From the IMG/VR virus record IMGVR_UViG_3300026521_000065, positions 1-24,802 of that record: a stretch of DNA of 24,802 bases, one strand, 5' to 3'. The stretch comes from a virus. The notes below the pieces were generated by a model. That model was not told the DNA's origin, made no database searches, and saw nothing but the letters and a program-made list of their open reading frames with translations. Shown in pieces: positions 4,613 through 24,802 of this stretch; position 1 is the stretch's first letter, and every line of letters starts with the position of its first letter. The position numbers and the translations under genes are program-made.

Positions 4613-6433
4613 TTATCTTTTACTATTTTTATCGGTGTACATTTTAATACCTTTTTCACCCATCACCGTTCTTAATGCATCTTCATAAGGCATTCCAGCT
4701 GCTGTTAATTTAGCCACCGTGTTTTCGTCCGTACCGTCTATTTTTGAACGTACAGTAAATTCAGCTTTGGCTCCCTTGTCTCCAATATAAGTAAGTATTG
4801 AGTCTATTGTTGAACCGATTGCTTTCCACTCTTGTTTACTACTGTCACTCATTAGTTTATTCCGCCCCAATGGATTAACCAATGATGTCACCTCTTTACT
4901 ATTTTGCTTTTGACTAACTACTCTGCTTAATAGGTTTGCTTCATCATTATCAACACCGAATACCTTAGTTAATTGCGTAGGGCTGCTTATACCTAAGTCG
5001 ATTGCTTTAGCCTTTATCTCTTCTGGGTTGTATTGCACCCTACTCATTACATCGTCTAAGGTACCTCCGCCAAGTAACCTATTCGTTTGTTGTTGAGGTG
5101 TAGCAAATTCTATGGGTTTTTGGGGGATTGTAGTATTAACTGGAGTCATTAGCCCGTTATTATTTGTATTTATAGGTACAGTGTCATTACTAGTTGTAGG
5201 TTGTTGACTGGGAGTGTTAGGTATTACGTTGTTCAAATCAGCAAACAGTTTATTGGGATCTACTTGCTTATCCTTATCTTTACTAAGTAACCTGTCAATT
5301 TCGGCATTTACTGATGCTAGTGCATCTTTATCCACCTTAGCGCTACTGTTAGGCTTAGTATAACCTTTAAACAATCCTTGTGGTATTTTACCGTCCTTAT
5401 CTAGTTTCAGGTCAAAGTAGCCAGTCTCCACTTTTGGTTTGTAGTTTTGTTGTATAGCATTATGAATATCATCACGTGATGCTCCAGCCTGTATTCCCTG
5501 GTTTATCAGGTTTAATAGATCTGAATCGAGCATTTCACCACGTTTACCAATCTTACCGTTAAGGTTTTTATATATACTGTTAATATCTTTTGATGATGCT
5601 GGTTTGAATGTACTATTTGTATTATTACTACTATTATTTTTTGTGTTACCAGTCAATAGTTTGACCTTTCTATCTTGAGCATCTTTCAACAGTTTGGCAT
5701 TACTAACAGCCTCAGCAGCTTTTAGTTTATCGACCTGCTCTTGAGCGTATAAGTTATTTGGGTTATTAATTACTGCATTTATAGCTCTCTCTTTAGGTGT
5801 CGCTACCCTACTTTTACTGTACTCTTGGCTTAACTTAAATAGTTTATCCTGATACTCTTGTTCTTGTTGTGGAGTCACTCCAGGAAGTAACTTACCTTGT
5901 TTATCGTAAATTTTGTCTAAACCCCAATCTTTATCAGTACGATTACTTGCAGCCAGTAACTGCTCATTGGTAGCTGAAGCGTCCGGAGAGTACGAGTTAA
6001 CTCTACTCTGAAGTTTCGAATTTATATAGTGAGTACCGTTTTCCTGATTGTAGTACTCTTTCTCAGGTGCTTCTTTTTCGGCTAGTAGCTTCTTTTGATA
6101 TTCTCTGTTATTATTAGTAACCTCTGCTTGATGTGCCCAGACCTTATCTTGGTCTAACAGCTTCTGCTTGTGATATTTGGCTTTCTGACCCTCCGTATAT
6201 TTACGTTGATCTTCTAGTAGCTTCTTTTGATATTCTCTAGCTTCTAACAGTTTGGCTTTTTCTTCTTCTTTTTGCTGTTTTAGTCGTTGTTCAGTTATCT
6301 TCTGATCACTCATATGGGACAACTGTTTAGCTAACCCTCCAATAGCATCAATACCAGCTCTTTGAAATGGAGCGGCACTAGTGACTGTACTGTAGGGTGC
6401 TGCTGTATTAGTGGTTTTGAACCAGGTACTCAT
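4613..6433 (-). CDS. Probable internal virion (ejection) protein, 606 aa
   Basis: ATG at 6433 follows AAAGGA with a 6-nt spacer. Residues about 45-130 are a Lys/Gln/Glu-rich helical segment with two copies of a REYQKKLL motif. Residues 260-275 are an Asn/Ser-rich linker, and another Asn/Thr/Pro/Gln-rich linker lies near 410-450. The C-terminal part is helical with motifs such as DLGISSPTQL. No transmembrane helix or catalytic motif is evident. It lies between a 259-aa and a more than 1520-aa protein, as T7 gp15 lies between gp14 and gp16, so the middle ejection protein is the likeliest role. It could be another elongated internal head protein. The assignment rests on order, size and composition only. 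Confidence 0.6.
   Translation of the reverse strand: MSTWFKTTNTAAPYSTVTSAAPFQRAGIDAIGGLAKQLSHMSDQKITEQRLKQQKEEEKAKLLEAREYQKKLLEDQRKYTEGQKAKYHKQKLLDQDKVWAHQAEVTNNNREYQKKLLAEKEAPEKEYYNQENGTHYINSKLQSRVNSYSPDASATNEQLLAASNRTDKDWGLDKIYDKQGKLLPGVTPQQEQEYQDKLFKLSQEYSKSRVATPKERAINAVINNPNNLYAQEQVDKLKAAEAVSNAKLLKDAQDRKVKLLTGNTKNNSSNNTNSTFKPASSKDINSIYKNLNGKIGKRGEMLDSDLLNLINQGIQAGASRDDIHNAIQQNYKPKVETGYFDLKLDKDGKIPQGLFKGYTKPNSSAKVDKDALASVNAEIDRLLSKDKDKQVDPNKLFADLNNVIPNTPSQQPTTSNDTVPINTNNNGLMTPVNTTIPQKPIEFATPQQQTNRLLGGGTLDDVMSRVQYNPEEIKAKAIDLGISSPTQLTKVFGVDNDEANLLSRVVSQKQNSKEVTSLVNPLGRNKLMSDSSKQEWKAIGSTIDSILTYIGDKGAKAEFTVRSKIDGTDENTVAKLTAAGMPYEDALRTVMGEKGIKMYTDKNSKR
6082..6238 (-). repeat. Pair of perfect 25-bp direct repeats inside the 606-aa gene
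   Basis: Positions 6082-6106 and 6214-6238 are identical over 25 bp, with starts 132 bp (44 codons) apart. Both encode the REYQKKLL motif, in the same frame. They lie in the N-terminal helical region and fit an internal duplication or a recombination-prone segment. Confidence 0.9.
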
Positions 6434-6444
6434 CTATCATCCTT

Positions 6445-7224
6445 TTATCTATTCGACATATTAACGAAATGTTGATATAATCCAGAGTTCTTGACACCGT
6501 TATGCATTGCATCACTCATTTTTCCACGTCTCGCCTTTTCTGCTGCTATATCATTTCTTGTATCGTTATACTCAGTCTTGTGTTGCGCCAGTTGTTGGCG
6601 TTGTAAATCAAGAGCGGCATTAGCTTGCTTGTCGGCTTTATGCATACCGTACAGATTAGCCCCTAGAGCGGCCCACGCTGCCCAGTTCGTACCATTATTT
6701 TTGGCATTATTTTTGCCTAATACGCTTTTACCCGCTGCGGTATAATTACCTTGGGCATCTGCTAGCTTAGTGTCAAAAAAAGTTCCTTCTTGCATTAGGT
6801 TACCGGATCCGTCATAAAATTGTGTACCAGCCTGTCTACCGCTAAAATTAAGTAGATCACCAAGAGACCCTCCGAAATTTTCGCCTTGAGCTAATCCATA
6901 ATCTGCACCTTGTATTGCCTGACCTGTAGTGGGATCAAGCATCACACCGTTATAACTTACAGCCCCACCCACACCAGTACCAGGTTGCATTATAGGTTGT
7001 TGAACACCTGCCTGAAATATGCCTTGTGCATTGTTGACCGAAGGGGTGCCGGGACTATTAATTGTGGGGATATTTGAATTTAACGAGTCTCCCATCATAT
7101 CGCTATAATCGGTTGTATCGTTTGTACTTAGGTATTCTGTAGGGTCCCATGTAGACGTCTGCTTAGGTTTAGGGAGCCTCCAGTTACTAGAAGCCACTGG
7201 GTTTTGATAGTACGGATCTGCCAT
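6445..7224 (-). CDS. Probable small internal virion / ejection protein, 259 aa
   Basis: ATG at 7224 follows AAGGA with an 8-nt spacer. The first 160 residues are low-complexity and rich in Gly, Asn, Gln, Thr and Pro. A short hydrophobic stretch WAAWAALGANLYGM lies near 181-194. It is followed by a charged helix (QANAALDLQRQQLAQHKTEY onward, 199-235). One hydrophobic segment next to a coiled helix is the usual plan of the smallest podovirus ejection protein (T7 gp14-like), which enters the host outer membrane. The gene is first in the run 259 - 606 - more than 1520 aa. It ends 11 nt before the next start. Role inferred from this architecture and order; no family-specific motif is recognised. 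Confidence 0.6.
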   Translation of the reverse strand: MADPYYQNPVASSNWRLPKPKQTSTWDPTEYLSTNDTTDYSDMMGDSLNSNIPTINSPGTPSVNNAQGIFQAGVQQPIMQPGTGVGGAVSYNGVMLDPTTGQAIQGADYGLAQGENFGGSLGDLLNFSGRQAGTQFYDGSGNLMQEGTFFDTKLADAQGNYTAAGKSVLGKNNAKNNGTNWAAWAALGANLYGMHKADKQANAALDLQRQQLAQHKTEYNDTRNDIAAEKARRGKMSDAMHNGVKNSGLYQHFVNMSNR

Positions 7225-7296
7225 GATTATATTCCTTGTTTTTGTTTTTGTTTCTGTTTTTATTATTGTAGTATTACTTTACTTATGTTTTGCTTA
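7225..7296 (-). promoter_or_regulatory. A-rich, unstructured 5' leader of the 259-aa gene
   Basis: This 72-nt gap is the longest gap in the window together with 17383-17468. On the coding strand it is almost free of G and contains repeated A4-5C units just before the ribosome binding site. I see no hairpin, terminator or convincing -35/-10 pair. A purine-rich, unfolded leader of this kind may favour translation of the first ejection gene. Confidence 0.35.
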
Positions 7297-8391
7297 TTAA
7301 AATGTGAGAAATTCTCCATACATGATCATGTCTTCCATATCTTCATCAAACGGTTCTGGTATATTATTAAATATCACGTGTACATTTTGGGTGCTCACTC
7401 TAAAATTCCCATGGAAATCGTTTATGCTTTTTCCAAACTTTAGATATAGACTTAAATGGAAAGGGCTAGGATGTCCGTTCATACTGCGAGTATGGATGTT
7501 TGGTATTAACTTATCAGGTATCTTTTCATAAAAAGATATAGTTTCTCTGAAAGGTATTATTAAGGAATAATCATGTGGTTCGTATAAAATCCATAAAGAC
7601 ACATCACCATCTTTTTCCTGAAAATCTACATCTTTTAAGTTTATGTCCTCGGAATCGCCATGTCGCCAGTAAATTTCTCCGTCTTTACAACTGTCATTAT
7701 TGGTAGAGTCTCTAATATACACTATATCACCGTAGTTAATTGTTATTTTGTTGTCATTATCATCTTCTCTAATATAATCAATATGTCGGTTGTAATCTTT
7801 ACTATTATCCTCAGATTTCAGTTCGCCATAATCTATCACCAGATCACTATTTGGTACAGTAGAGTACGGTAACATTGTACTGAAGTGTACATCGCCGTAT
7901 CTAAAGTCTGAACAATGGACTCTAACCCCCTTCTTAAGTTTTACATCCTTATCATAAGGATTTAGTAAAGCTATCTCGCCTATTACAGTAATGGTAGGTA
8001 TCGGGTTACTAAAACTAAGTAACGACTCAGTATGCCTATAAATATCATCTTTATAACGTAGTTTAATCGACCAATTTGGGGATGCACTGGTTACGTCATA
8101 AATTAAGATATCGTCATCAACGTAATCATCATCAGTGATGTCTATAAGGATAGACCTTTCTCTGTAAGCTAAATGTGTAGTATTATAAAGATATATATCT
8201 TCGGCTAAGTGTCTAGCTGTAACTTTAGTCTTTATGTGACTACTCTTTATTAGTGAACCAGTTATTGTCTTCCCAGAAATTGTAGTACCAGTAATTTTTT
8301 CAGCGTCAACACTGCCTGCGTGTATGCCCGCTGCATTTAATTGATGTATGTTTAATTTACCTAAAGCTGCTTTGCTTTTGTCTTTTGCCAT
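7297..8391 (-). CDS. Tail-fibre-like or appendage protein, 364 aa
   Basis: ATG at 8391 follows AAGGA, which sits inside the end of the upstream gene; only 1 nt separates the two genes. Residues 20-65 show short Gly/Thr/Ser/Ile-rich repeats (GTTISGKTITGSLIKSSHIK), the kind of pattern seen where tail-fibre proteins have beta-helical or triple-stranded N-terminal segments. The rest is beta-rich and unusually rich in Asp and aromatic residues (for example DITDDDYVDDD). No enzymatic motif and no membrane segment is visible. Its place between a giant structural protein and the ejection genes supports a virion role, perhaps receptor binding or fibre attachment. It is not recognised as any named family. 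Confidence 0.45.
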   Translation of the reverse strand: MAKDKSKAALGKLNIHQLNAAGIHAGSVDAEKITGTTISGKTITGSLIKSSHIKTKVTARHLAEDIYLYNTTHLAYRERSILIDITDDDYVDDDILIYDVTSASPNWSIKLRYKDDIYRHTESLLSFSNPIPTITVIGEIALLNPYDKDVKLKKGVRVHCSDFRYGDVHFSTMLPYSTVPNSDLVIDYGELKSEDNSKDYNRHIDYIREDDNDNKITINYGDIVYIRDSTNNDSCKDGEIYWRHGDSEDINLKDVDFQEKDGDVSLWILYEPHDYSLIIPFRETISFYEKIPDKLIPNIHTRSMNGHPSPFHLSLYLKFGKSINDFHGNFRVSTQNVHVIFNNIPEPFDEDMEDMIMYGEFLTF

Positions 8392-8392
8392 G

Positions 8393-11300
8393 TTATAAAT
8401 CCTTAGTAAGTTTTTCTTTTTCTTTTTTTATCATCTCAAGTTTATCTTGTAACTTTTTTATTTCACCGCCGGATATATCAGTGTTTAATAATCCCCGAGT
8501 CATGTTACCCGCCTTGTTATAGAGTATACCCGCACCTACGGATCCAGCGTAGGCGATGGCTTGATTGCCTGTGACTATACTACCCGCTGCAGAAGCTATA
8601 GTGACAATATCACCAGTAATTTTGTAGGCAGCCGCCATACCAGCATCTTTGAAATAGTCTTTTGTACCAGTCAGTTTCTCATAGTCTGCACTCATCTTAC
8701 TTAAGTAATCATTAGCCTTATTACCTACCGCTCCACACATATGTTTATCATTCATGAAATCTACCAACGCTTTTTGATGATCATTTAGCGATTTAATATC
8801 AGTATTAATATCTGATATTATACTATTTGCTGTAGTATGGTTAATATTGTCAGGCACGTTGTTGACTACTTTAGTAGTATTCTTGTTTGTAATATTATCA
8901 TTATTATCCTTAGGAGTATCTTTAGAGTCCCCTATTAATTCATTTATTTTTTTATTAATAGTATCAGCTGCTTGAGATTTTTTAGCAGCTTTTGCGAAAT
9001 TAGCCGTTACATCCCCTTTTATATGAGACTTTTCAGCTATGTTGGTACCATTGTGAGAATTCCAATAATCATTCTGGTCTAGAAGCTGTTTACTTAACTC
9101 GGGTTCCAAAGTTTTAATATTTACTGATTCATTAATACCTTTATTAATAGGAGTGAGCACGTGAAATCTGTCACCACCAGCTATATAATTATCATAATTA
9201 TAAGATCCAGCCATATGAGATGTATCTTCACTAGAATGGTGTAGAGGTTGAAACCCTCCTTGCATATACATACTCAGAGTCTGCATTTTATTTTGTAGTG
9301 CAATTGAATCCACTTTTAATGTGTACGGTTCAAAACTGTTACTGGCGAAATGTGGCTGAAGTACAGCACACGCAGGGTTACCGACCGCTACGGCAAATTT
9401 AACCCCTGCATCTACTATATCTTGTAAACCAGTAGTCTTTAAATCATCGCCTACTTTGTTTACATCTTTGGATGTCTTGTGCGCAAATGAAGTCCAGTCA
9501 TCACCAACATCATGCGTTATATCACTTGCGCTCTTACCTCTAGCGGTATCGTCAACTATAGTCCCAACGGTTTTTACCACTGTAGCAGCCGTACCAACAG
9601 TTGCATCAGCTATTACTACAGCTGTATCCATACTAAGCTGAACATAATCCTGAAGATTAGACAAAGGGTGTTCTGCAATATCTTTTGCTTCTTCCCGAAC
9701 AGCGTCACCTAAATCTTTAGCTGCGTCATAACTATTTTCAGCCCAGGTTTCAGTATCACTATATGCTTTCTCTACGACCTTCTCTGCTTTATGGTAGGTT
9801 TCTCTTGGATGTGTAGCGGCATAGTATGTTTTATTTGTTATATTAACAGCGGATTTTACGACGGCTTTTCCACCTTTTTGAATTACATCATTAGCGTCAT
9901 CCAACCAATCAAATACATCTTTCTGATACCATTTTTTACTTTTTTTAGTATGAGCTTCTTTATATTTTTCAGTATCAGTTTTTTCATTATCGTACTCTGT
10001 CGTAAATAAACTGTTTAATTTATTATCAATATCCTTATCAGTATAACCGTTGACATATTTCATTAAATTATCTTGCTGAACTTTAGAGTAAGTATTTTTA
10101 AGTAGCATAGACTGTATTTTTTGGAATCTCTCATTTCTAATCTTATCTAAATTATTACCTTCATTTACTGTCTTTTTAATTTTCTCCCACATCTTACTTT
10201 TTCGTTTAGTATTCACAGCCTTATTAATTATATCTTTACTGGCAAATATATCCTTACGTTTGAGCCTATCTGCAGTCTCTTTTGCGACATCTTTTACCTT
10301 TTCTGTATGGAATTCACCTAACACTTTAGTAGTGGTGGTAGTCTTTGTACTCTTTGATTGATATTTGTCATTGTCATATTCTAGAGTAGCCTTATACTCT
10401 CCATCCACTTTATTGCCGTTTATAAACACTTCTGTACCAGTTATATGCTTAACCTTATATTGTGTTATGGTTGATTCAGTGACTTTTTTAGTTATGTATT
10501 GTTGTGTTATACCGTTGTCTAGTTCGTTCTCATTAGCTTCATAATGAACATCTCTTGTGTCGCGAGTTTTAGCGCCATAAATATAAGCTCTACCAGAGGC
10601 GTCTGATTCTATTTTATCTACACTCTTTATATGGACTTTTTCTAATAGATTACTATAAAAAGTGGATGCATCATGTTTTATGAAATCAAGTGCATCTGTT
10701 TTAGACATGTGTTTATCTGCTATAGTCTTCAAGACTGCCTTAGTATGTAAACTTGTGTATTTGTCAATAAAAGTGTTGTCATACACCTTATTTTTTTCAC
10801 CTATTGATTGAGTATGGTAGTATTGAGTTTTTACTGCATCGTAGAAGTGTGATAAATCATCTAATTTCAGTAACCCTTTATCAATATTATCATTTACTAC
10901 CTTTAATTGAGATGTGCTGTTGGTATATTTTTCTGTATGCTTACCATCAAAGTTTAATAAAGAACTAGTGTACTGACTCTTTTCATCTATTTTTATATCT
11001 TTCGCTAATTTATCAGTCAGTGCCTTAGCCTGATCTTTAATTTTTAATTTTATCTCTTTTGTGACATCGGTTAAGCTAAGCTTAGATTCCCCATTGGCTT
11101 TTTTGATTAAATTATTTAACGATGTTAATTTCTTTGATAGGTCTAAATCATTGAAAAGTTTATCAGTTAATAACTGTTCAGTATCCTTAGATAATAGGTC
11201 AGTAGTATCTATATTTTCACCATTAAGTGAAATATTGTATTTATAGTTTTCCCATTCGTAAGGTGTTCTATATTCTTGCTCAGCGGCTGAACTACTATCT

Positions 11301-12058
11301 ATAAATTTATTGATGTTTATAGAGTTAACGAGCTCCGTATATGCCGAATTTGCCTTATCAGCCTCTTTTATCTCTTGTTCGTGTTGTTTTCTTTTATATA
11401 TATCAGTTTTTACTTTATCATATAAAGTATTACTATGCAGAGATTTTCGTAATTTTATTAAATCTTTATTATACTTACTTTGGTATATCCTACGGATACT
11501 GTATTTTGCGTGTGTTTCTTCGTGTTTAATTCTATTATCAAATCTATGAATTAAATTATTATAATAAGAATCACTGACTACTCCTCGTCCATGTAATTTA
11601 TGTTGCCATTTACGTTCTAGTGTACGTTGTGCCATCATCTTATTATAGGAAGCCCTATCAGTGATCCTACTAACGGCTTTTTGATTGTTTAGATGTTTTA
11701 ACGTACCATCTTTATTTTTGTCTTGAGCTATTAAAGTCTTTCTATTAGTATATCGTTCTTTTATAGGATCTAAATAGTGGGCTTCAATTTTATCAGCTAG
11801 AGACTTATACTCATCTGTAGACTCAATGTGTTTTAAATAATTTAAGTCATTACTAATAGTTGTAAAATCATTTTGTATATCTGTACTTTTTACATTACTG
11901 AACACGGACTTAATATCAGCAGTTGTGAAACCACTGAATATATCCGTACCTTTTACACTATCTTGAATAAATTTAATATTCGCTGTAAAATCATTTTGTA
12001 TATCTGTACTTTTTACATTATTTATTACAGCTCCCGTGGTTTCAATTGAAGATTTCAT
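8393..12058 (-). CDS. Giant helical structural protein, 1221 aa, with N-terminal repeats
   Basis: ATG at 12058 has only a weak ribosome binding site but lies 5 nt after the preceding stop, so translational coupling is likely. The N-terminus has three copies of a 12-residue motif: NVKSTDIQNDFT at 14-25 and 55-66, and the divergent SVKGTDIFSGFT at 34-45. Residues about 70-700 are Lys/Asp/Glu-rich and mostly helical. Two less polar stretches follow, near 815-850 (rich in Ala/Val/Thr) and 1140-1190 (GDIVTIASAAGSIVTG and on). The last 25 residues are a charged helix. It could be an elongated tail component, a tape-measure-like protein or a further ejected protein, since the two hydrophobic regions could contact membranes. 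No catalytic motif is seen, and I do not recognise the family. Confidence 0.55.
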   Translation of the reverse strand: MKSSIETTGAVINNVKSTDIQNDFTANIKFIQDSVKGTDIFSGFTTADIKSVFSNVKSTDIQNDFTTISNDLNYLKHIESTDEYKSLADKIEAHYLDPIKERYTNRKTLIAQDKNKDGTLKHLNNQKAVSRITDRASYNKMMAQRTLERKWQHKLHGRGVVSDSYYNNLIHRFDNRIKHEETHAKYSIRRIYQSKYNKDLIKLRKSLHSNTLYDKVKTDIYKRKQHEQEIKEADKANSAYTELVNSININKFIDSSSAAEQEYRTPYEWENYKYNISLNGENIDTTDLLSKDTEQLLTDKLFNDLDLSKKLTSLNNLIKKANGESKLSLTDVTKEIKLKIKDQAKALTDKLAKDIKIDEKSQYTSSLLNFDGKHTEKYTNSTSQLKVVNDNIDKGLLKLDDLSHFYDAVKTQYYHTQSIGEKNKVYDNTFIDKYTSLHTKAVLKTIADKHMSKTDALDFIKHDASTFYSNLLEKVHIKSVDKIESDASGRAYIYGAKTRDTRDVHYEANENELDNGITQQYITKKVTESTITQYKVKHITGTEVFINGNKVDGEYKATLEYDNDKYQSKSTKTTTTTKVLGEFHTEKVKDVAKETADRLKRKDIFASKDIINKAVNTKRKSKMWEKIKKTVNEGNNLDKIRNERFQKIQSMLLKNTYSKVQQDNLMKYVNGYTDKDIDNKLNSLFTTEYDNEKTDTEKYKEAHTKKSKKWYQKDVFDWLDDANDVIQKGGKAVVKSAVNITNKTYYAATHPRETYHKAEKVVEKAYSDTETWAENSYDAAKDLGDAVREEAKDIAEHPLSNLQDYVQLSMDTAVVIADATVGTAATVVKTVGTIVDDTARGKSASDITHDVGDDWTSFAHKTSKDVNKVGDDLKTTGLQDIVDAGVKFAVAVGNPACAVLQPHFASNSFEPYTLKVDSIALQNKMQTLSMYMQGGFQPLHHSSEDTSHMAGSYNYDNYIAGGDRFHVLTPINKGINESVNIKTLEPELSKQLLDQNDYWNSHNGTNIAEKSHIKGDVTANFAKAAKKSQAADTINKKINELIGDSKDTPKDNNDNITNKNTTKVVNNVPDNINHTTANSIISDINTDIKSLNDHQKALVDFMNDKHMCGAVGNKANDYLSKMSADYEKLTGTKDYFKDAGMAAAYKITGDIVTIASAAGSIVTGNQAIAYAGSVGAGILYNKAGNMTRGLLNTDISGGEIKKLQDKLEMIKKEKEKLTKDL
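11861..12020 (-). repeat. Pair of perfect 37-bp direct repeats near the 5' end of the 1221-aa gene
   Basis: Positions 11861-11897 and 11984-12020 are identical over 37 bp, with starts 123 bp (41 codons) apart. They encode the two exact NVKSTDIQNDFT motifs. A third, diverged copy lies between them at about 11923-11960. The protein units recur every 20-21 residues. Identity at DNA level, including third codon positions, indicates recent duplication or gene conversion. Confidence 0.95.
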
Positions 12059-14537: not shown

Positions 14538-15740
14538 TTATCTAGACGCTAATACATTTACTTTTAGTAAAGTTGTTTCATTTAGTATAATTCCTGCGTA
14601 GAAGAAGTTATAACTGAAGAAACCTAGTGTACCGTATGGGTTTTCATTTGATACTTTAGCTGGAGATGCACTGTTGAATTTGATTTTACCATGACCTCTC
14701 AACCCAACTGTTGCAAATGAACCTTTTGTTGGGAATAAAATTGGGAATACATCAAAGTGACCTCTTGTACCATCATCTCCAGATGCAGCACCAGTGAATG
14801 ATAGTTCTCCTGCATAGTCTTTTGGCACTTCAGTACCTTTTCCTCTATACACTAACGCACTTTCAGATTCAATGAATCTAACATCATGCATAGCACCAAC
14901 TTCACCCTCAGCTAAGTTTGAAGCCCCCGCATATTTGAACGCAGGAATAAATACATAGTCATCTGTACCTCTAGTTAATGACTCTAGGTCATATTTAACT
15001 TCTGGACCTACTATCGCATAAAACGCTTTATTAATTGTTCTAGTGTCAATTTTTGTTGAACCAGTAACGATTGATGTATTTTTCTCAGCTCTATTTCTAA
15101 CTAATTTTCTAGCAGCTTTTCTGATTAAGTTGTAACTTACTCTATAGATATCATCATCTGAACCATCCGCAGCCTCTACTAACTCACCCATTGTATTTTC
15201 TGTTCCACCACCAGCGTATAACACATTTGTTGTTGATAACATATCCAATTGGATTAAGTCTTCTTGACGTCTGTTAGCTAAAGCACCTAATGCCTCTCTA
15301 TATCTAACTTGCATAGCATCTTCTGACCATAGCTCTACTTCATCAGTATAATCCATCATTTCACCGTATCTAGCAAAGCTAGCTTCGAATGTAACTTTTT
15401 GTAGTTTAACTTTATTAGTTGCACCCGCACCTTCTGTTAACCCTGCACCATTACCAGTTGTATCTGTAATGTTAGCCAATAACTCATCATAACTTCTTGA
15501 AGACAAGTATCCAAGTGTAGCAAAATCTGGGTGATCAGTTGTTCTATCATAAATGTTTAGAAATTTACTAATCTTGAATGTTTTACCCATTTTTGTAGGC
15601 ATTGATTTTCTGTCTGCCCATTGACCATAGATATTAACTTCTGTTGCTGCTTTTAACCCAGCCCTGTCATAGTAGTGAGTTATTGTATTAGCACCTGCTG
15701 TTGCTGTTGTTGTTCCATTTCCGTATGCGTTTGTTGCCAT
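14538..15740 (-). CDS. Major capsid protein, N4-gp56 family, 400 aa
   Basis: This is the HK97-fold shell protein, of the family named after coliphage N4 gp56. The pattern fits: an N-terminal YDRAGLKAATEVNIYGQWAD segment (about 24-43), KSMPTKMGKTFKISKF (45-60), a segment around residues 110-145 ending in DYTDEVELWSEDAM, REALGALANRRQEDL at about 150, a central domain with IVGPEVKYDLESL, and the late GTLGFFSYNFFYAGIILN (about 370-387). At 400 aa it has the family's usual length. I chose ATG 15740 over an in-frame TTG six codons upstream because AGGAGG at 15750-15755 sits 9 nt before the ATG and would lie inside the longer frame. The gene is flanked by hairpins, and its ribosome binding site is the strongest in the window, fitting high expression. 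It follows the scaffold gene. Confidence 0.9.
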   Translation of the reverse strand: MATNAYGNGTTTATAGANTITHYYDRAGLKAATEVNIYGQWADRKSMPTKMGKTFKISKFLNIYDRTTDHPDFATLGYLSSRSYDELLANITDTTGNGAGLTEGAGATNKVKLQKVTFEASFARYGEMMDYTDEVELWSEDAMQVRYREALGALANRRQEDLIQLDMLSTTNVLYAGGGTENTMGELVEAADGSDDDIYRVSYNLIRKAARKLVRNRAEKNTSIVTGSTKIDTRTINKAFYAIVGPEVKYDLESLTRGTDDYVFIPAFKYAGASNLAEGEVGAMHDVRFIESESALVYRGKGTEVPKDYAGELSFTGAASGDDGTRGHFDVFPILFPTKGSFATVGLRGHGKIKFNSASPAKVSNENPYGTLGFFSYNFFYAGIILNETTLLKVNVLASR

Positions 15741-15749
15741 ATTATTGTG

Positions 15750-15755
15750 CCTCCT
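15750..15755 (-). promoter_or_regulatory. Very strong ribosome binding site (AGGAGG) of the capsid gene
   Basis: A full AGGAGG lies 9 nt before ATG 15740. Most other genes here carry only AAAGGA or weaker. It decides the capsid start and fits the need for hundreds of copies per virion. Confidence 0.85.
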
Positions 15756-15765
15756 CAAGCACGCC

Positions 15766-17461: not shown

Positions 17462-17483
17462 GTAGCCCTTAATCTCGGGCTAC
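17462..17483 (-). promoter_or_regulatory. Hairpin spanning the portal stop codon
   Basis: On the coding strand arms GTAGCCC and GGGCTAC form a perfect 7-bp stem around an 8-nt loop (GAGATTAA) that contains the portal stop codon. It is followed by TTAAGAGTC and not by a U-tract. Terminating ribosomes would melt it, so it may act only when translation is slow, or serve as a processing site. Confidence 0.6.
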
Positions 17484-19454
17484 ACCTAAATTTTTATCTC
17501 CGTGCATTGCTTGGAAAGCCATCTGATCTAAGTTTGATAGCCTATCAAAATTTTTCTTTTCAAGTTCTTTTTCATGATCTCTACCTGACTGTTTCTCAAG
17601 GAAATCTAAATCAATCTTATCAGCTTCACTAGCTACCTTACGAGCCTGTTGTTCTTTAAGTACCGCTTCAGCAGTTTTCTTACGAACATCAACATAGTTT
17701 TCTTCAGCCATGCTATACAACTTTCCTACTTCAGCTTTTAGTTTAGCATTTTCTAACATCGCATTTTCCAATTGCACTTGTTGTAGTTTCACTTGCATTG
17801 GATCTGGTTGTGGAGGTTGTGGTTGATACTCCATTATTCTACGAGCCAATTCAGGCATTTTTTGTAATCTTGCTATTTCACTTCTAATCATTCTGACCTC
17901 AACAGGATCCATTGTTTGTTGACCCGTCTGTAACATGAAGCTTAGTTCCTGGGCTTTAGCGCTATTATCTTCCGCTGTACTAACATGTATTGATATATCA
18001 ATCGCACCACCTAAATCACCTCTATTAATATCAACGAACTCTTCGTTTGTTATCCTAACCACTTCTTTTTCATCTAGGAATACGGCATCATAAGCCAACC
18101 ATTTACGCATCAACGGTTTAACCAGATTTTCTGCTATGTTACGTACTGTATTTAATCTACGTACACTAGTAGCATCTAATACACCGTGGGCTGACGTAGC
18201 CGAACCGTTACCAATTGCACTGGTGTTAATACCACCACTGAACCCTTTCACTCCAGTAATACTTTCTATTTCATTGTTCATCATATCAAGCATATTGAAG
18301 GCACTACCAGGTATTTGATTATAGTGTCCATCGTAAAAGTCATTGGCTGACGTATTAAATTCGAAGTTCTGACCTGACAGGAACTTTCTCCTATTAGCCA
18401 CATCTAATGCACCTTTCTTAATACCTTTCTGTCCGTTATTACTTTGAGCCATATTATCAATAATACCCCTAGTAATAGCTGTCTTTATCTTTTGATTATC
18501 ACTAATCAATTCAGCGTTACTTTCCCCGTGCAACTGGAACGGTACGGCATTAAACGGTACTACCAGAAAAGGTAACTCACCATTAGGATATGGATTATCC
18601 TGTAGTCTAATTATAGTATCGTTTACCCATGCACACACTATCGGTTTTGCTATACCATCTCCTTGGATATCGTAGTTACCCCAATATTCATACACTATTA
18701 TCTTTTTTCTAGGGTCATCTTCAAACTTAAACTCTGTATCATCCTCACTGTCATAATCTACATCCGTAGATACATCAGCATCTTGTATATTTATTTTATC
18801 TAAGTTCTTATAACGCCCGTCTTGTCTTAACGTACTAAGATCTGTCTCATATCTATATATTACGAATTGGCAGTTACTCATATCATCTTGACACGTAGGA
18901 TCTATGTATATATCTTCATTACGGCAAACCTTAGCTGTTGGCCTATTAAGTAGTACGCGGGTTTCAGTAACCATTTCAGTGCCGATTATAGCCTCTTGTC
19001 CAGTGGTTGGGTCAATACCAATTATCGGAGCTTCCACCTCAACTTCTTCATCCCTATATTCCCAACCTGTTTGAATTATGCACGTACCTTCCCTATCAAG
19101 TACTTTTACGGCCTTACTCATGAAGTTATATCTAGGGAATTGTCTGCAGAATTGCGTATTCAGTAGCACTTCCGCTTGTCTAGCTCCTGGACCATCTTCA
19201 TATGTCACAGGCATAGCCTTTATAATATCATCTGAACTGACAAATGGGTCTATAATACTGGCATGTTGCCATTCACTTTGTTTTTTAATATCCCTAGTGA
19301 CTACCCTACTTTTGCCAGGTTGTTCATTACCGTATGGTTTACCGTCATACTCGTCTACCCATTTAGCAATCTTAGCCATCTGATCATCGTGAAACGGTTT
19401 AGCAGCTGTATAGTCTGCTTTTAACGCTTTTAATATTTTTCTTTTATTAATCAT
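17469..19454 (-). CDS. Portal protein, P22-like, 661 aa
   Basis: The portal is a dodecameric ring at one capsid vertex through which DNA is packaged and ejected. Supporting features: a length in the range of podovirus portals, the N-terminal pattern SRVVTRDIKKQSEWQHASI followed by DPF (about 49-70), NEDIYIDPTCQDDMSNCQFV (about 180-199) followed by IYRYETDLSTL, a central ESITGVKGFSGGIN segment (near 400), and an extended Gln/Glu/Lys-rich C-terminal helix (about 550-640) like the barrel helices of P22-type portals. ATG at 19454 follows AAAGGA with a 7-nt spacer. It leads the head module, before the small acidic protein, scaffold and capsid genes. Distinguishing P22-like from other podovirus portals by eye is less sure than the portal call itself. 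Confidence 0.85.
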   Translation of the reverse strand: MINKRKILKALKADYTAAKPFHDDQMAKIAKWVDEYDGKPYGNEQPGKSRVVTRDIKKQSEWQHASIIDPFVSSDDIIKAMPVTYEDGPGARQAEVLLNTQFCRQFPRYNFMSKAVKVLDREGTCIIQTGWEYRDEEVEVEAPIIGIDPTTGQEAIIGTEMVTETRVLLNRPTAKVCRNEDIYIDPTCQDDMSNCQFVIYRYETDLSTLRQDGRYKNLDKINIQDADVSTDVDYDSEDDTEFKFEDDPRKKIIVYEYWGNYDIQGDGIAKPIVCAWVNDTIIRLQDNPYPNGELPFLVVPFNAVPFQLHGESNAELISDNQKIKTAITRGIIDNMAQSNNGQKGIKKGALDVANRRKFLSGQNFEFNTSANDFYDGHYNQIPGSAFNMLDMMNNEIESITGVKGFSGGINTSAIGNGSATSAHGVLDATSVRRLNTVRNIAENLVKPLMRKWLAYDAVFLDEKEVVRITNEEFVDINRGDLGGAIDISIHVSTAEDNSAKAQELSFMLQTGQQTMDPVEVRMIRSEIARLQKMPELARRIMEYQPQPPQPDPMQVKLQQVQLENAMLENAKLKAEVGKLYSMAEENYVDVRKKTAEAVLKEQQARKVASEADKIDLDFLEKQSGRDHEKELEKKNFDRLSNLDQMAFQAMHGDKNLGVARD

Positions 19455-19806: not shown

Positions 19807-20049
19807 CTATCCTTTTATTTCTATTATTCTGACTTCATCACCAACGACATCTACTATTACTTGATCAATCACCGATTTGACATCTATTATTTCAATTACC
19901 TCATCGATTTTAATCTCTTCCGTTATTTCCATGATCTTATAATCAGCCATTATACCATGCATTGTAAAGGACATAGCTTGTAAATGTTCCAAAGCGGTAT
20001 GCCCAGCACCTAGGGAACTGCGGTTTTTAATGAAGTCTGCTAATGTCAT
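19807..20049 (-). CDS. Small acidic protein of unknown function, 80 aa
   Basis: ATG at 20049 overlaps the upstream stop by one base (TAATG), with AAGGTG just ahead, so translation is coupled to the 319-aa gene. The N-terminal half (MTLADFIKNRSSLGAGHTAL) looks helical. The C-terminal half is a run of Ile/Val/Glu/Asp strands (EITEEIKIDEVIEII, VIVDVVGDEVRIIEI). No family is recognised. Tight coupling and position among virion genes suggest a structural accessory or small chaperone. The ORF has a proper start and clean junctions on both sides, so it is very likely real. Confidence 0.6.
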   Translation of the reverse strand: MTLADFIKNRSSLGAGHTALEHLQAMSFTMHGIMADYKIMEITEEIKIDEVIEIIDVKSVIDQVIVDVVGDEVRIIEIKG

Positions 20050-21008
20050 TATAACACCTTACCTAATGTTGCGTCATATACTGCACCTGGTAATGCGTTA
20101 ATTTTATCGACTAGGGCATTGTAATCATCAGTTATCGCTTGTTTAGTATCCATTAGTGTGTTATGTTCATCATCAGTTAATGTAGCAGTAGGAAGATTGT
20201 CAATTAACGCTTTTATCGTATCTAACGCTGATTGAACATCATCTACCTTATCGCTAACATTACCAATTAAATCTTTTATTGTGGTATCATCGTAGTTAAT
20301 CAATGTATCCGTATGTTCTTTACTATCTGTAGTAATGGATTTTAATTCAGCCAATTTATCGTTTACTGCCGCTAAATCCGTATTAACCACTGTTGTCTCT
20401 ACTTTAGTTACTTTGGCTACTACATCATTGTCAGGATCGAAATTATGTAATTCACCAATAGCTGTTTGTATGTCCGCTACACCTGTTTTTATCACAGTGA
20501 GATCTGAATCACTAGCCTTGAAGTCATCTACTGATGTAACATCAACACCGTTAACTGCTTTGATGTTAACACCTGCCTCTATACTCGTTAAATCAGCTTT
20601 GTATAAATCTTTATTATTGTACCCTGTCATTAATTGATCAAACTCAGCTTGTGTCATCTTAGCATTAGCACCAACAACACTGGTAACATTGTAGGAGTAG
20701 TCGCTACTAACAGGCAGATAAGGCGTATCCAATCCACCGTATACCAGTAAGTTACCTTGCACTTCAACGGATATATTATCATCAGGCCATTTAACTCTCC
20801 AGCCATTCATTAAATAAAAGTAAGTAGGTATATCCTCATCAGAAGTAATGGGGTCACCTCCCACTGTGGTGAATGTTTGTGGGTACTTCATATTATCATC
20901 TTGTAGTATCCAACGTTTCCATTCTGAATATACATACTTAATATTAAATACTCCAGTAGGATCTGCTGGTAATACCAGTCTGTTAGTACCATCAAAACTC
21001 ACTTCCAT
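20049..21008 (-). CDS. Conserved phage virion protein with coiled-coil C-terminus, 319 aa
   Basis: Residues 1-110 form a domain with FNIKYVYSEWKRWILQDDN, TTVGGDPITSDEDI, FYLMNGWRVKWP and VQGNLLVYGG. I have seen this pattern (Y-S-x-W-K-x-W, then GGDP, then GWR and G-N-L-x-V) in hypothetical virion proteins of many tailed phages, usually near tail or neck genes. Residues about 115-319 are Asp/Thr/Lys-rich with repeated aliphatic spacing (VADIQTAIGEL, DDVQSALDTIKALIDNL), suggesting a trimeric coiled coil that leads away from the folded head. ATG at 21008 lies 1 nt after the stop of the 50-aa gene. A tail-appendage or neck-fibre role fits; the exact position in the virion is unknown. Confidence 0.6.
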   Translation of the reverse strand: MEVSFDGTNRLVLPADPTGVFNIKYVYSEWKRWILQDDNMKYPQTFTTVGGDPITSDEDIPTYFYLMNGWRVKWPDDNISVEVQGNLLVYGGLDTPYLPVSSDYSYNVTSVVGANAKMTQAEFDQLMTGYNNKDLYKADLTSIEAGVNIKAVNGVDVTSVDDFKASDSDLTVIKTGVADIQTAIGELHNFDPDNDVVAKVTKVETTVVNTDLAAVNDKLAELKSITTDSKEHTDTLINYDDTTIKDLIGNVSDKVDDVQSALDTIKALIDNLPTATLTDDEHNTLMDTKQAITDDYNALVDKINALPGAVYDATLGKVL

Positions 21009-21176: not shown

Positions 21177-21707
21177 TCATATTACTTTACCCTCTTGGTC
21201 AAATGATTCATATCTCATGTAACTGCCACCATGAAGACACTTGAATCCAAACTCTTTATCGAAATTCCATCCATCAAGGAATATAAATAATCTTTTACGT
21301 TCGCTATAATCAAATGGTAATGGTCCACCAAACCCATTGTCGGGGATTTTATTTATCAGTTTCCATTCTTTATGTAACGCGTAAAAGAGTTGTTCATATG
21401 TACAGTCTTTTCGTACTTGAATCTCCTTAGTCTCGAAGTATATATCAAAGTCTTTATTCACTGTTAGTGGTTCATCTTCTTTAACTACCTCTGGTGTGAC
21501 ATCCATGATACTCAATACCCATGTATCAATACCATGAGCACCATCTTCAACTAAATTCAGTATCTTACCGATTTGAGTAACAGTAAATACGCTACCTAGT
21601 AAATGAAACGTAGCCCCTACCTTTACATCAGGTGCCACTATATCCAACTCTATTCCATTAAATGAGTTCTTACTATCACCAACTACTTTAAATTTTTTCT
21701 TCATCAT
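21177..21707 (-). CDS. Hypothetical protein of unknown function, about 176 aa
   Basis: An ATG at 21734 opens the frame, but no ribosome binding site precedes it. AAGGG followed by TGAT lies directly before the ATG pair at 21707 and 21704, so one of these is the likely start. The protein has a beta-rich first half (FKVVGDSKNSFNGIELDIV, GATFHLLGSVFTVTQIGKIL) and a helical segment CTYEQLFYALHKEWKLIN, then a Phe/Gly-rich C-terminal part (FIFLDGWNFDKEFGFKCL). The first half resembles a small SH3/OB-like barrel in strand spacing only. No catalytic motif or membrane helix. Its neighbours are virion appendage candidates. Confidence 0.6.
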   Translation of the reverse strand: MMKKKFKVVGDSKNSFNGIELDIVAPDVKVGATFHLLGSVFTVTQIGKILNLVEDGAHGIDTWVLSIMDVTPEVVKEDEPLTVNKDFDIYFETKEIQVRKDCTYEQLFYALHKEWKLINKIPDNGFGGPLPFDYSERKRLFIFLDGWNFDKEFGFKCLHGGSYMRYESFDQEGKVI

Positions 21708-21751
21708 ATCACCCTTATTATAATATTTCATCATTATACTACTATTGAGCT

Positions 21752-22654
21752 TTAATCATTCTTATACCATCTGTCTTTTTGTTGTTGTATAGGAATACTG
21801 TTATCACTACTTCCCAGTGTTAATTCAATTCTTATAGGATTGTAACCAACGGCATACACTACTACTATGATATCCACATCTTCAGTGTAGTTGTAGTTAT
21901 ATGTAAACGATGAGCCACTATCTTCGATTCCCGCTAACTCGCTCATATCAGACTTTTTATACACTCGTACCTCACTGTTATCTTGTAGTCCTGTAAGTCC
22001 AAAAGTCACTAATACTCCATTTATATCTCTAACTTTAGCACTTGTACTACCTGAGTTACTTAGAGTGAAAGTATTATTATGCATATCAATGTACTTCCCA
22101 GTACCTGCTAGGTTAACCCCGTCTACAGTCAAATCATATACTAACGTATAGTCTGATCCATTATTAGTGGTAAGTATACCTTCTGGAAACTCTTTTATAG
22201 GGTTCTGTGTCATATCATATTGACAGTAATCGTATAACTCATTGACAGTATGTCCTTCGGTAATCGTGATGATCTTATTAGTATGATCTATATCTATCCC
22301 TGTGTATCCAGCTACAGTAGCAGCATCACTTTCTGTTACATACGGATTATTACTAATATAGAATGTATCCACTCTAGATGATACAAAGGCTATGTTTAAC
22401 GCCTTAGGTGTTACACCGTATTTACATATACTAAGTACATGTGGTGTATGTTTATTCTCTGTAACATCATCTGTATTATCAATAGTGTAATCCGCTTCTG
22501 TCATATATGCAGAATTACTGCCATTTGAATCTGTGACAATATGGGTGATTACTCCGGCAGTGTTCCATAGGTATACATTAACATCAGCTTCCCCAGTTCC
22601 ATCGTTTACTGTTGATAAGTCCCATGCCCATTGCTTGTTAAGATAGCTGCTCAT
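21752..22654 (-). CDS. Beta-rich appendage / tail protein, 300 aa
   Basis: ATG at 22654 overlaps the end of the LipM-like gene by 17 nt, following AAAGGG. Strand-rich segments alternate throughout. Two patterns recall domains seen in phage appendage proteins: VTESDAATVAGYTGIDIDH with KIITITEGHTVNELYDYCQY (about 103-145), and VTFGLTGLQDNSEVRVY through IVVVYAVGYNPIRIEL (about 210-275). The C-terminus SIPIQQQKDRWYKND matches a Q-Q-Q-x-D-R-x-Y ending I recall in such proteins. No hydrolase or lyase motif is seen. A tail-spike-like or baseplate-adaptor structural role is the best guess. Translational overlap with the LipM-like gene links the two in expression. Confidence 0.55.
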   Translation of the reverse strand: MSSYLNKQWAWDLSTVNDGTGEADVNVYLWNTAGVITHIVTDSNGSNSAYMTEADYTIDNTDDVTENKHTPHVLSICKYGVTPKALNIAFVSSRVDTFYISNNPYVTESDAATVAGYTGIDIDHTNKIITITEGHTVNELYDYCQYDMTQNPIKEFPEGILTTNNGSDYTLVYDLTVDGVNLAGTGKYIDMHNNTFTLSNSGSTSAKVRDINGVLVTFGLTGLQDNSEVRVYKKSDMSELAGIEDSGSSFTYNYNYTEDVDIIVVVYAVGYNPIRIELTLGSSDNSIPIQQQKDRWYKND

Positions 22655-23309
22655 CCATTACCCTTTCTTTAAATAATTGCATGAATTCTTTTACGGTAGT
22701 ATATACGTTTATCTCCTGTAAGCTTATAGGTTTAACCGTATGTTCAGCTTCACTTGGTAAGTACTTATATAATTCTTCATACGATGGTTCCATGTACATC
22801 ATTACATGCCCTACTAACTTGTCTTCTACTCTAGTGAAACTACTGCCGACTAGTTTCCTACCATTATAGGAAATCTCGTTCTTAGTTAACGCATTGAAGC
22901 AGCCGTACGGTAAATAACCGTGTCTCGACCCGGTGTCCACTAATACTGTAGATTTAGTATAATTAGTATTTAATATATCATTTATCAATGTCATGAATTC
23001 TCTGTGTTTTACAGATGGTACGGTGCTATTCATTGTATCCTTACCACATATGACGGTAAATGATATCTCCTTCCCTGTAAATATAACGGCTGTTCCCTTA
23101 GTGAGTTTTCTTATTACCTCTATTGATGTATCTGCTATGTTGAGATTTTGTTGTTTACCTATAGCTATGGTAGGTTTGTTTATCCTAAAGAACACTATTC
23201 TAACCTCATTATCAGCGCAGGTAGCAGCGTGGAATTCATCGTACTTTGTAGCTATAGATGCATGTCTTTCTTCAAATAGTGTAATGATATCTATATTATC
23301 TTTAAACAT
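22638..23309 (-). CDS. LipM/LplA-fold protein (lipoate ligase / octanoyltransferase-like), 223 aa
   Basis: The sequence follows the BPL/LplA/LipM fold in order: ATKYDEFHAA (20-29) for the family's N-x-A-x-DE helix; VRIVFFRINKPTIAIGKQQN (36-55) for the PxIRFYxWxPxTxxxGxxQN strands; VIRKLTKGTAV (65-75) for the RRxTGGxAV ligand loop; ISFTVI (82-87) for the LTYSVI strand; GCFNALTKNEISYNGRKLVG (136-155) and then SS, for the CF-x-x-P-S-x-YE-x-x-x-x-GRK-x-x-GSA block; and H168 for the conserved QHG His. Cys137 aligns with the acyl-thioester Cys of LipM, and Lys152 with the conserved lysine. In the ligand loop one Gly is Lys71 and the usual His is Phe77. It is a little shorter than LipM. ATG at 23309 follows AGAGGA; it overlaps the upstream gene by 8 nt and the downstream gene by 17 nt. 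Enzyme or exapted structural fold is undecided. Confidence 0.7.
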   Translation of the reverse strand: MFKDNIDIITLFEERHASIATKYDEFHAATCADNEVRIVFFRINKPTIAIGKQQNLNIADTSIEVIRKLTKGTAVIFTGKEISFTVICGKDTMNSTVPSVKHREFMTLINDILNTNYTKSTVLVDTGSRHGYLPYGCFNALTKNEISYNGRKLVGSSFTRVEDKLVGHVMMYMEPSYEELYKYLPSEAEHTVKPISLQEINVYTTVKEFMQLFKERVMDEQLS

Positions 23310-23865
23310 AATAATCCTCTATCGTTAAATAATCAATATCTTTTAAATCCGCTCTTAATGGTTTATTTAAAAATCTAAATTGATTTTTGATATTACTCTG
23401 CACACAAGACACCACTTTTCGTTCAAATAGATCAAGTGCCATAATCATATCATTTTTTAACATTTCATTTGTAGTATTTTCTAAAAGCTGTTCTGCTATA
23501 TACTTCATTTTATAGACTCTGGTATTAGTTTTATTAAACATTTCATTATATAACTTTACCATAAAGTCCTGACTTTTAACAAAATATTCTACATATTTGT
23601 CACCTTCTACGAGTTTTATTTCTATATAATCACTCATTTTAGGGGCAATCACTCTTTGTACATAATAAATCTCTTTTTGGAGTCTTACTTGAAGTTCTGC
23701 CCACATATCTTTTCTTTTTTCATACTCTCGTGCTGTATCTTCATCTTTAGCTGTTATTTGTAGGTATTGTAGTTCATCTTTAATTCTAGCTATTACTTTT
23801 CTATCTTCTGTTGCTTCTTTAAAACTTAACTCTAATATCTCTTTACCTTGTTTTAGTAACGACAT
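23302..23865 (-). CDS. Helical protein of unknown function, 187 aa
   Basis: ATG at 23865 follows AAGGAGA inside the end of the upstream gene. Residues 1-75 form a charged, probably coiled helix (KEATEDRKVIARIKDELQYL, then KDEDTAREYEKRKDMWAELQ). A short beta hairpin (YIEIKLVEGDKYVEYFV, about 79-95) and further helices up to LTIEDYYV follow. Two cysteines but no metal-binding or catalytic pattern. Its last 8 nt overlap the start of the LipM-like gene, so the two are co-translated and may work together. No family recognised. Confidence 0.6.
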   Translation of the reverse strand: MSLLKQGKEILELSFKEATEDRKVIARIKDELQYLQITAKDEDTAREYEKRKDMWAELQVRLQKEIYYVQRVIAPKMSDYIEIKLVEGDKYVEYFVKSQDFMVKLYNEMFNKTNTRVYKMKYIAEQLLENTTNEMLKNDMIMALDLFERKVVSCVQSNIKNQFRFLNKPLRADLKDIDYLTIEDYYV

Positions 23866-23868
23866 TTA

Positions 23869-24802
23869 TTAACTTCTCCTTACTGTTGAATATGTAGCAT
23901 TATCAATAGTTGCTGTTTTACTGTCTATAATATCTAAATCATAGCCTGTATTATCAAGTAGTTTAAGATTGTTTAATTCGCTATTTTCCGAAAATCTTAT
24001 ACCGTCTTTACATCTATAAAGTAATATATCATTAGTTAAGTTAAAAACTGATAAAACTTCCATAGCATAATCGTATAAGTTATTTATACTATCGTGTATT
24101 GATATATGTTCTATTGAGTTATTATTGCTATTAAATTTAACTAACTCACAACTATCAAAATCAACCAAATTTAAACTACAAGTTCCGTTAAATTCTATCA
24201 CTTCCCATCGATAAAATTTACTATTATATACTTCAAAGACTCCGTTTGTATCCACTAAAATACTAGCTGTCATTCCTTGTGGTTTTACAATTTGGCATCC
24301 ATCAAGTGGCTTATTATTTTCTATTTTACCTATTCTAAATGTTCCATCTGTAATAGTGATATTATGCTTAACTTCGTTACTTAATTGATTAAATAGCAGG
24401 TATATATTTTCAGCACTTACATAACCACCATTGTTAATAGTTAAACCACTCTTAATATTAGCTAATTTACCACTCATTTCAACAGTACCGATAGGAAAGC
24501 TACGAGTATTAAAAGTATAATCTGCTATATCTTCAATAGTAATGGGGTCTGTATTATCTCCACCATTTATAGTAATTGTATTGCCAACAAAAAAGGCATC
24601 AATGTTTAAATCTACATCAACTTTAACTGCACAATTTAATCTAAACTCTATTCTGTGTATATCTAAGTCAAAATCGCTACCGCCATTATGTCCGCCACCT
24701 GTTGCACCGCCATTTAATTCAGTACCACTACACATTAACATTTGCCAACCAAATTTTAAAGATAAATCCCCTTTTTCAGTTACTCTATATTCTGCATATT
24801 TA
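23869..24802 (-). CDS. Beta-rich, possibly beta-helical virion protein, 5' end beyond window
   Basis: The frame stays open from its stop at 23869 to the window edge, passing ATG 24741 without a ribosome binding site before it. The protein therefore almost certainly begins outside the window. The visible 310 residues begin with YRVTEKGDLSLKFGWQM and a Gly-rich GGATGGGHNGGSDF loop. Short strands and turns then repeat about every 20-25 residues (ITINGGDNTDPITIED, NIKSGLTINNGGYVSAENI, HNITITDGTFRIGKIENN, SLNLVDFDSCELVKFNSN), the look of a right-handed parallel beta-helix as in tail spikes and fibres. No pectate-lyase or depolymerase active-site pattern is evident. A tail fibre, spike or baseplate component is likely; an enzymatic spike cannot be excluded without the N-terminus. 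Confidence 0.5.
   Translation of the reverse strand, partial: KYAEYRVTEKGDLSLKFGWQMLMCSGTELNGGATGGGHNGGSDFDLDIHRIEFRLNCAVKVDVDLNIDAFFVGNTITINGGDNTDPITIEDIADYTFNTRSFPIGTVEMSGKLANIKSGLTINNGGYVSAENIYLLFNQLSNEVKHNITITDGTFRIGKIENNKPLDGCQIVKPQGMTASILVDTNGVFEVYNSKFYRWEVIEFNGTCSLNLVDFDSCELVKFNSNNNSIEHISIHDSINNLYDYAMEVLSVFNLTNDILLYRCKDGIRFSENSELNNLKLLDNTGYDLDIIDSKTATIDNATYSTVRRS

Follow-up and report, generated by a model that had tools for sequence, protein, structure and literature searches.

A highly diverged LipM-like protein encoded among the tail genes of an N4-like podovirus

Introduction

What is a protein with the fold of lipoate ligases and octanoyltransferases doing among the tail genes of a phage, and is it still an enzyme? 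Lipoylation controls entry into the TCA cycle as well as glycine cleavage, which supplies one-carbon units for nucleotide synthesis. In LipM the cysteine serves as the acyl carrier. LipM of the Bacillota is a single-domain ACP:GcvH octanoyltransferase of PF03099 that works without ATP (PMC6067878). Here, we ask whether the phage protein belongs to this superfamily, which branch it resembles, and what its most plausible role is.

The virus and the locus

The window, which is the whole stretch of DNA analyzed, is the 24,802-base record of an uncultured virus, and every gene considered is encoded on the minus strand. Two of them identify the type of virus:

14538..15758, minus strand, major head protein (phrog_1357)
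17469..19454, minus strand, portal protein (PF23899, 4e-148; phrog_1216)

Since the portal and the major head protein are of the N4-like type, the virus has been assigned to the N4-like podoviruses. By the portal, the closest named relatives are the Alteromonas phages AD45 (59% identity), followed by R22Y and PT11-V19. Several other features of the window have been recorded. Gene 1-4560 (minus strand) encodes a 1520-residue protein with no family match and contains a five-copy 9-nt tandem repeat at 1307-1369, giving a stretch of SQQ units. Four large genes (606, 259, 364, and 1221 residues) lie downstream of the head module, at 4613-12058; none of them scores above cut-off with a Pfam family or matches the related loci fetched. 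The similarity suspected between genes 21177-21734 and 20049-21008, as a tail domain repeat, is not significant.

The lipoyl-type gene sits between two genes that it overlaps:

23302..23865, minus strand, upstream overlapping gene, 187 residues, mostly helical, GC 0.28 (ORF list, scans)
22638..23309, minus strand, LipM/LplA-superfamily gene, 223 residues (PF21948, PF03099, alignments, model and Foldseek)
21752..22654, minus strand, downstream overlapping gene, 300 residues, of which 94-300 match residues 600-845 of an 845-residue protein of the closest related phage

The coordinates of the lipoyl-type gene and its overlaps of 8 nt with the upstream and 17 nt with the downstream gene are as first reported in a sequence-only reading; the strand, which had not been given, is minus. 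The gene starts with an ATG at 23309 behind a Shine-Dalgarno-like sequence (AGAGG-ATTATT-ATG), and the downstream gene has AAAGGG ahead of its own ATG. The GC content of the lipoyl-type gene is 0.35, and its GC and codon usage are in line with the window. An overlapping gene with a Shine-Dalgarno-like sequence and window-like codon usage is not a misassembled bacterial piece. Direct scans with the two overlapping neighbors have returned no relatives, and the predicted structure of the 187-residue neighbor is poor (pLDDT 56). Upstream of the lipoyl-type gene, the two genes at 23302-24801 have GC contents of 0.28 and 0.30, compared with 0.36 for the remainder of the window. They have no relatives in the searches made, and this low-GC block has possibly been acquired separately.

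Family membership and fold

The phage protein matches PF21948 (LplA-B_cat) with E = 3.6e-12 and 47.1 bits (curated cut-off 27) and PF03099 with E = 2.9e-5 and 24.4 bits (curated cut-off 21). These profile matches confirm the 223-residue protein as a real member of the lipoate-ligase/octanoyltransferase (BPL/LplA/LipB) superfamily. All five collinear blocks proposed from the letters alone have been located: helix 17-30 (in the model), I50-G-K-Q-Q-N55, R67-K-L-T-K-G72, C137-F138 with G150-R-K-L-V-G-S156, and H168. By the Pfam scores, they lie far beyond chance.

A structure model has been obtained with a pLDDT of 71 and a pTM of 0.71, weak at residues 124-135 and 189-196. In a Foldseek search of the PDB, the first 34 matches are of the LplA/LipB/LipL type and are followed by biotin ligases. 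The best matches are 2c8m, 5t8u, and 2art (TM up to 0.73), with LplA structures best. The alignment from which the model was built included 27 LipM relatives, so this structural support is not fully independent, and because the model leans on LipM sequences the profiles are the primary evidence. With profiles and Foldseek matches in agreement, the fold originally claimed for this gene stands. The likeness to LipB is in fold only: among the Pfam and NCBIfam matches at E up to 10 there is no LipB-specific model. LipB structures (1w66 and 2qhs, Foldseek E 8e-8 and 2.5e-7) share the fold and the single domain but only 11% identity in structural alignment. The catalytic Cys of LipB is placed elsewhere than in the LipM type.

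Divergence from LipM and the question of catalysis

Alignment of the phage protein with 27 LipM-type proteins, to which it is ~21% identical overall, identifies 16 columns that are the same in all: D24, T47, G51, Q54, R67, T70, G72, V75, E81, C137, F138, E145, K152, G155, S156, and H168. C137 and K152, earlier proposed as the catalytic residues, align on the catalytic positions and are both invariant across this set. The codons of interest are as follows:

22896..22901, minus strand, C137-F138, position of the acyl-accepting Cys of LipM (alignment with 27 LipM-type proteins; coordinates counted from the ATG)
22842..22862, minus strand, G150-R-K-L-V-G-S156, with the family lysine K152 (alignments)
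23091..23111, minus strand, ligand loop R67-K-L-T-K-G-T73, altered from RR-x-[TS]-GG-[RG] (alignment, profile comparison)

The phage protein resembles LipM (PF21948/PF03099) in its single catalytic domain and in the Cys-Phe pair, the GRK lysine, and the R, T, E, and H at invariant positions. It differs from LipM in its length (223 versus ~278 residues), in the altered RR-x-T-G-G loop, and in being encoded by a phage among tail genes. About seven residues after N55 are missing, and the protein ends before the C-terminal KY...W segment of LipM. In the ligand loop, RKLTKGTAVIFT replaces RRxTGGRAVLHD. R67, T70, and G72 are retained, while R68K, G71K, and T73 in place of R/G are changes, giving TKGT where the family has TGGR/G. 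The loop histidine (H77F) and the glycine of the HG pair (G169V) have been lost. In total, 13 of the 28 near-invariant columns of the Cys group are retained, including the C, K, H, R, T, and E, and 15 are changed. In the tree, the phage branch measures 6.25 changes per column and is paired with another long branch at a support of 35/26; the placement is weak because the branch is so long.

A very long branch, a changed ligand loop, the lost His and Gly, and a position among tail genes could all be read as signs that the fold of an enzyme has been recruited, without catalysis, for a structural or assembly role, perhaps as a tail assembly factor, and the loop changes make a non-catalytic role possible. 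We consider this reading unlikely, although it is the alternative that survives best, since the active-site Cys, Lys, His, Arg, Thr, and Glu have all been retained at ~21% identity, and no related phage has a lipoyl-type protein as a conserved tail part. The retention of active-site residues in an otherwise strongly changed sequence favors an enzyme.

An accessory gene at a variable site among the tail genes

PF21948 has been searched for in 50 related records, including AD45-P1, PT11-V19, and R22Y, several of which are fragments. There was no match in any of them, and the control genomes were positive. All 50 records, the closest one included, thus lack the gene. This closest record (L002/L177, 97 kb) has a head protein 71% identical to that of the window and is syntenic in this neighborhood up to the portal. 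The 845-residue counterpart of the downstream gene is a tail-region protein (L177:15515-18049), and two further phages (L175/L176) carry 147-195-residue versions of the same tail module, which is thus shuffled between phages. At the corresponding site, the closest record has a different, longer tail gene. As the lipoyl-type gene lies 5' of this conserved C-terminal tail module, in a region that varies between relatives, it is an accessory gene in a variable tail region.

The gene had been described as made with virion proteins and not as a separate cargo gene. The overlaps and the coupling point to one transcript, and co-expression with the tail genes is probable from the operon position, but this does not amount to a virion role. 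The absence from the 50 related records is the behavior expected of an accessory (cargo) gene, and the virion inference comes from gene position only.

Translational coupling to the tail-region genes, together with the residues kept at the catalytic positions, would also fit an enzyme that modifies the virion by attaching an octanoyl or lipoyl group to a lysine of a virion protein, such as a tail protein, from the same operon. Against this improbable reading, no lipoyl/biotinyl domain has been detected by Pfam in any protein of the window, which covers 24.8 kb of the virus. The known members of the family modify lipoyl domains, and related phages have the downstream tail module without the lipoyl-type gene. 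That a lipoyl-attachment enzyme made with the tail proteins would place octanoyl or lipoyl on a virion protein is doubtful; acylation of virions is not known in phages.

Cys-type or LplA-type

In an alignment of 54 proteins, the Cys of the CF motif is present in 34, and 20 have a gap. The LplA-type proteins of this set lack CF and mostly have N or V at position 81, so C137-F138 and E81 together distinguish Cys-type proteins from the majority of the LplA type. A profile of the 34 Cys-type sequences scores 54.1 bits on the phage protein; with the 20 non-Cys sequences, the match breaks into two fragments scoring 20.2 and 23.1 bits. Because of the CF motif, E81, and the better Cys-profile score, the phage protein is best described, as judged by its sequence, as Cys-type and LipM-like rather than as an ATP-dependent LplA. 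A bacterial genome scan has found 80 LipM-type loci, nearly all in Bacillota and only ~21–28% identical; because S. aureus LipM had contributed to the scan pattern, this result is no proof of a Bacillota origin.

The IGxxQ strand and an arginine, a lysine, and a histidine are common to the phage protein, E. coli LplA, Listeria LplA2, and S. aureus LipM. LplA/LplJ proteins thus share with the phage protein the fold, these family residues, and the IGxxQN strand. They differ in lacking the CF and in possessing a GGG loop plus an accessory domain at the C-terminus, whereas the phage protein has the CF and lacks the other two. An ATP-dependent LplA-type ligase that salvages free lipoate would be suggested by the top BLAST match in the phage and plasmid collections, which is Listeria LplA2 (28%), by the NCBIfam lipoate ligase model TIGR00545 (4e-8), and by N55 and N144, which resemble LplA motifs. 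However, the TIGR00545 score of 32.5 bits is far under the cut-off of 280, the C-terminal LplA domain is missing, and the CF motif, E81, and profile scores are those of the Cys type. We regard an LplA-type ligase as a poor candidate.

A proposed host-directed Cys-dependent transferase

The best explanation, which we hold tentatively and at somewhat less than an even chance, is that the gene encodes an accessory, single-domain, highly diverged Cys-type lipoyl/octanoyl transferase (LipM-like) that acts on host lipoyl-domain acceptors. On its retained residues, the protein is probably an active Cys-dependent octanoyl/lipoyl transferase, and its single-domain length, with no LplA C-terminal domain, agrees with this. 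By analogy with the characterized family members, host lipoyl-domain proteins are more likely acceptors than virion proteins. They are taken as the default because the known members modify lipoyl domains.

In the proposed mechanism, an acyl donor, for instance octanoyl-ACP, would hand its octanoyl (or lipoyl) group to C137 as a thioester, and K152 would help to position or activate the carbonyl. The acyl group would then be passed to a lysine of the acceptor protein without ATP. The likeliest acceptors would be host GcvH or E2 subunits, and the benefit may be that glycine cleavage and the 2-oxoacid dehydrogenases stay charged during infection. Catalysis, donor, acceptor, and benefit are all inferred here from the family. 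Several points speak against this reading: the extreme divergence, with the altered loop and more than half of the near-invariant columns changed; the lack of an encoded lipoyl-domain protein in the window; and a position among virion genes, where a metabolic gene is less expected than among early genes. A counter-defense or host take-over factor that binds or mis-acylates host lipoyl proteins and so shuts down or redirects metabolism is very improbable: it would suit an accessory gene located where relatives vary, but nothing specific speaks for it, and early expression would be expected of it.

Rarity among phages

The phage protein has no match in PHROGs (best E 0.45 over an 11-residue stretch), and reference LplA, LipM, LipB, and BirA sequences have no convincing match there either (best E 0.007), so PHROGs holds no phage family of the lipoyl-attachment kind. 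In tblastn searches of 50,697 phage records with LplA, two LipM proteins, and the phage protein itself as queries, no genuine phage match was obtained. The matches in this collection, mostly unannotated Listeria, Staphylococcus, Enterococcus, or Salmonella wastewater contigs or bacterial assemblies, were rejected by their names and annotation; this covers the matches other than a few 'Bacteriophage sp.' fecal records. Some entries filed as phages, among them OR844991, OR846870, OR850194, and AFYI01000007, look like bacterial chromosome pieces or assemblies carrying LplA and LipM genes of Listeria, Staphylococcus, and Salmonella.

A single-sequence search of IMG/VR viral contigs and GTDB contigs has found no close homologue. 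In the IMG/VR viral contigs, a mixed alignment also gave no close homologue and a LipM-type alignment gave no match. An LplA-type alignment gave six loci, most of the matches lying near a contig end; this position makes them likely bacterial flanks or prophage edges. No report of a phage lipoylation enzyme has been found in the literature searched, and the main text of a survey of N4-like viruses names many cofactor genes and does not mention lipoate.

Predicted structures change this picture in part. BFVD holds at least two tailed-phage proteins with an LplA-like predicted fold, one of them already named lipoate-protein ligase A, as well as a 682-residue unnamed viral protein (A0A516LAG4) with such a fold. 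The BFVD phage proteins A0A8S5URE8 (Siphoviridae sp. ctg6c78; 229 residues) and A0A8S5QKT7 (ctVCm11; 187 residues) have the same fold as the protein described here but only 10–11% identity, and by name they belong to another phage type. The best viral structural match is the lipoate-protein ligase of Bodo saltans virus (A0A2H4UVX5, E 7e-11), which differs in its 396 residues and in coming from a giant virus of a eukaryote. The earlier view that no phage module with this fold is known thus agrees with the PHROGs and tblastn results and fails on the tailed-phage proteins of BFVD. The lipoyl-attachment fold is rare in phages, not unknown.

Implications

In the phage and IMG/VR collections searched, hardly any genuine phage examples of this family occur, and none exists as a PHROG. 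If the protein is active, this would suggest that the phage controls host lipoyl enzymes or that its virions are acylated. As an unusually diverged member of the family, it may also serve as a test of which residues are essential.
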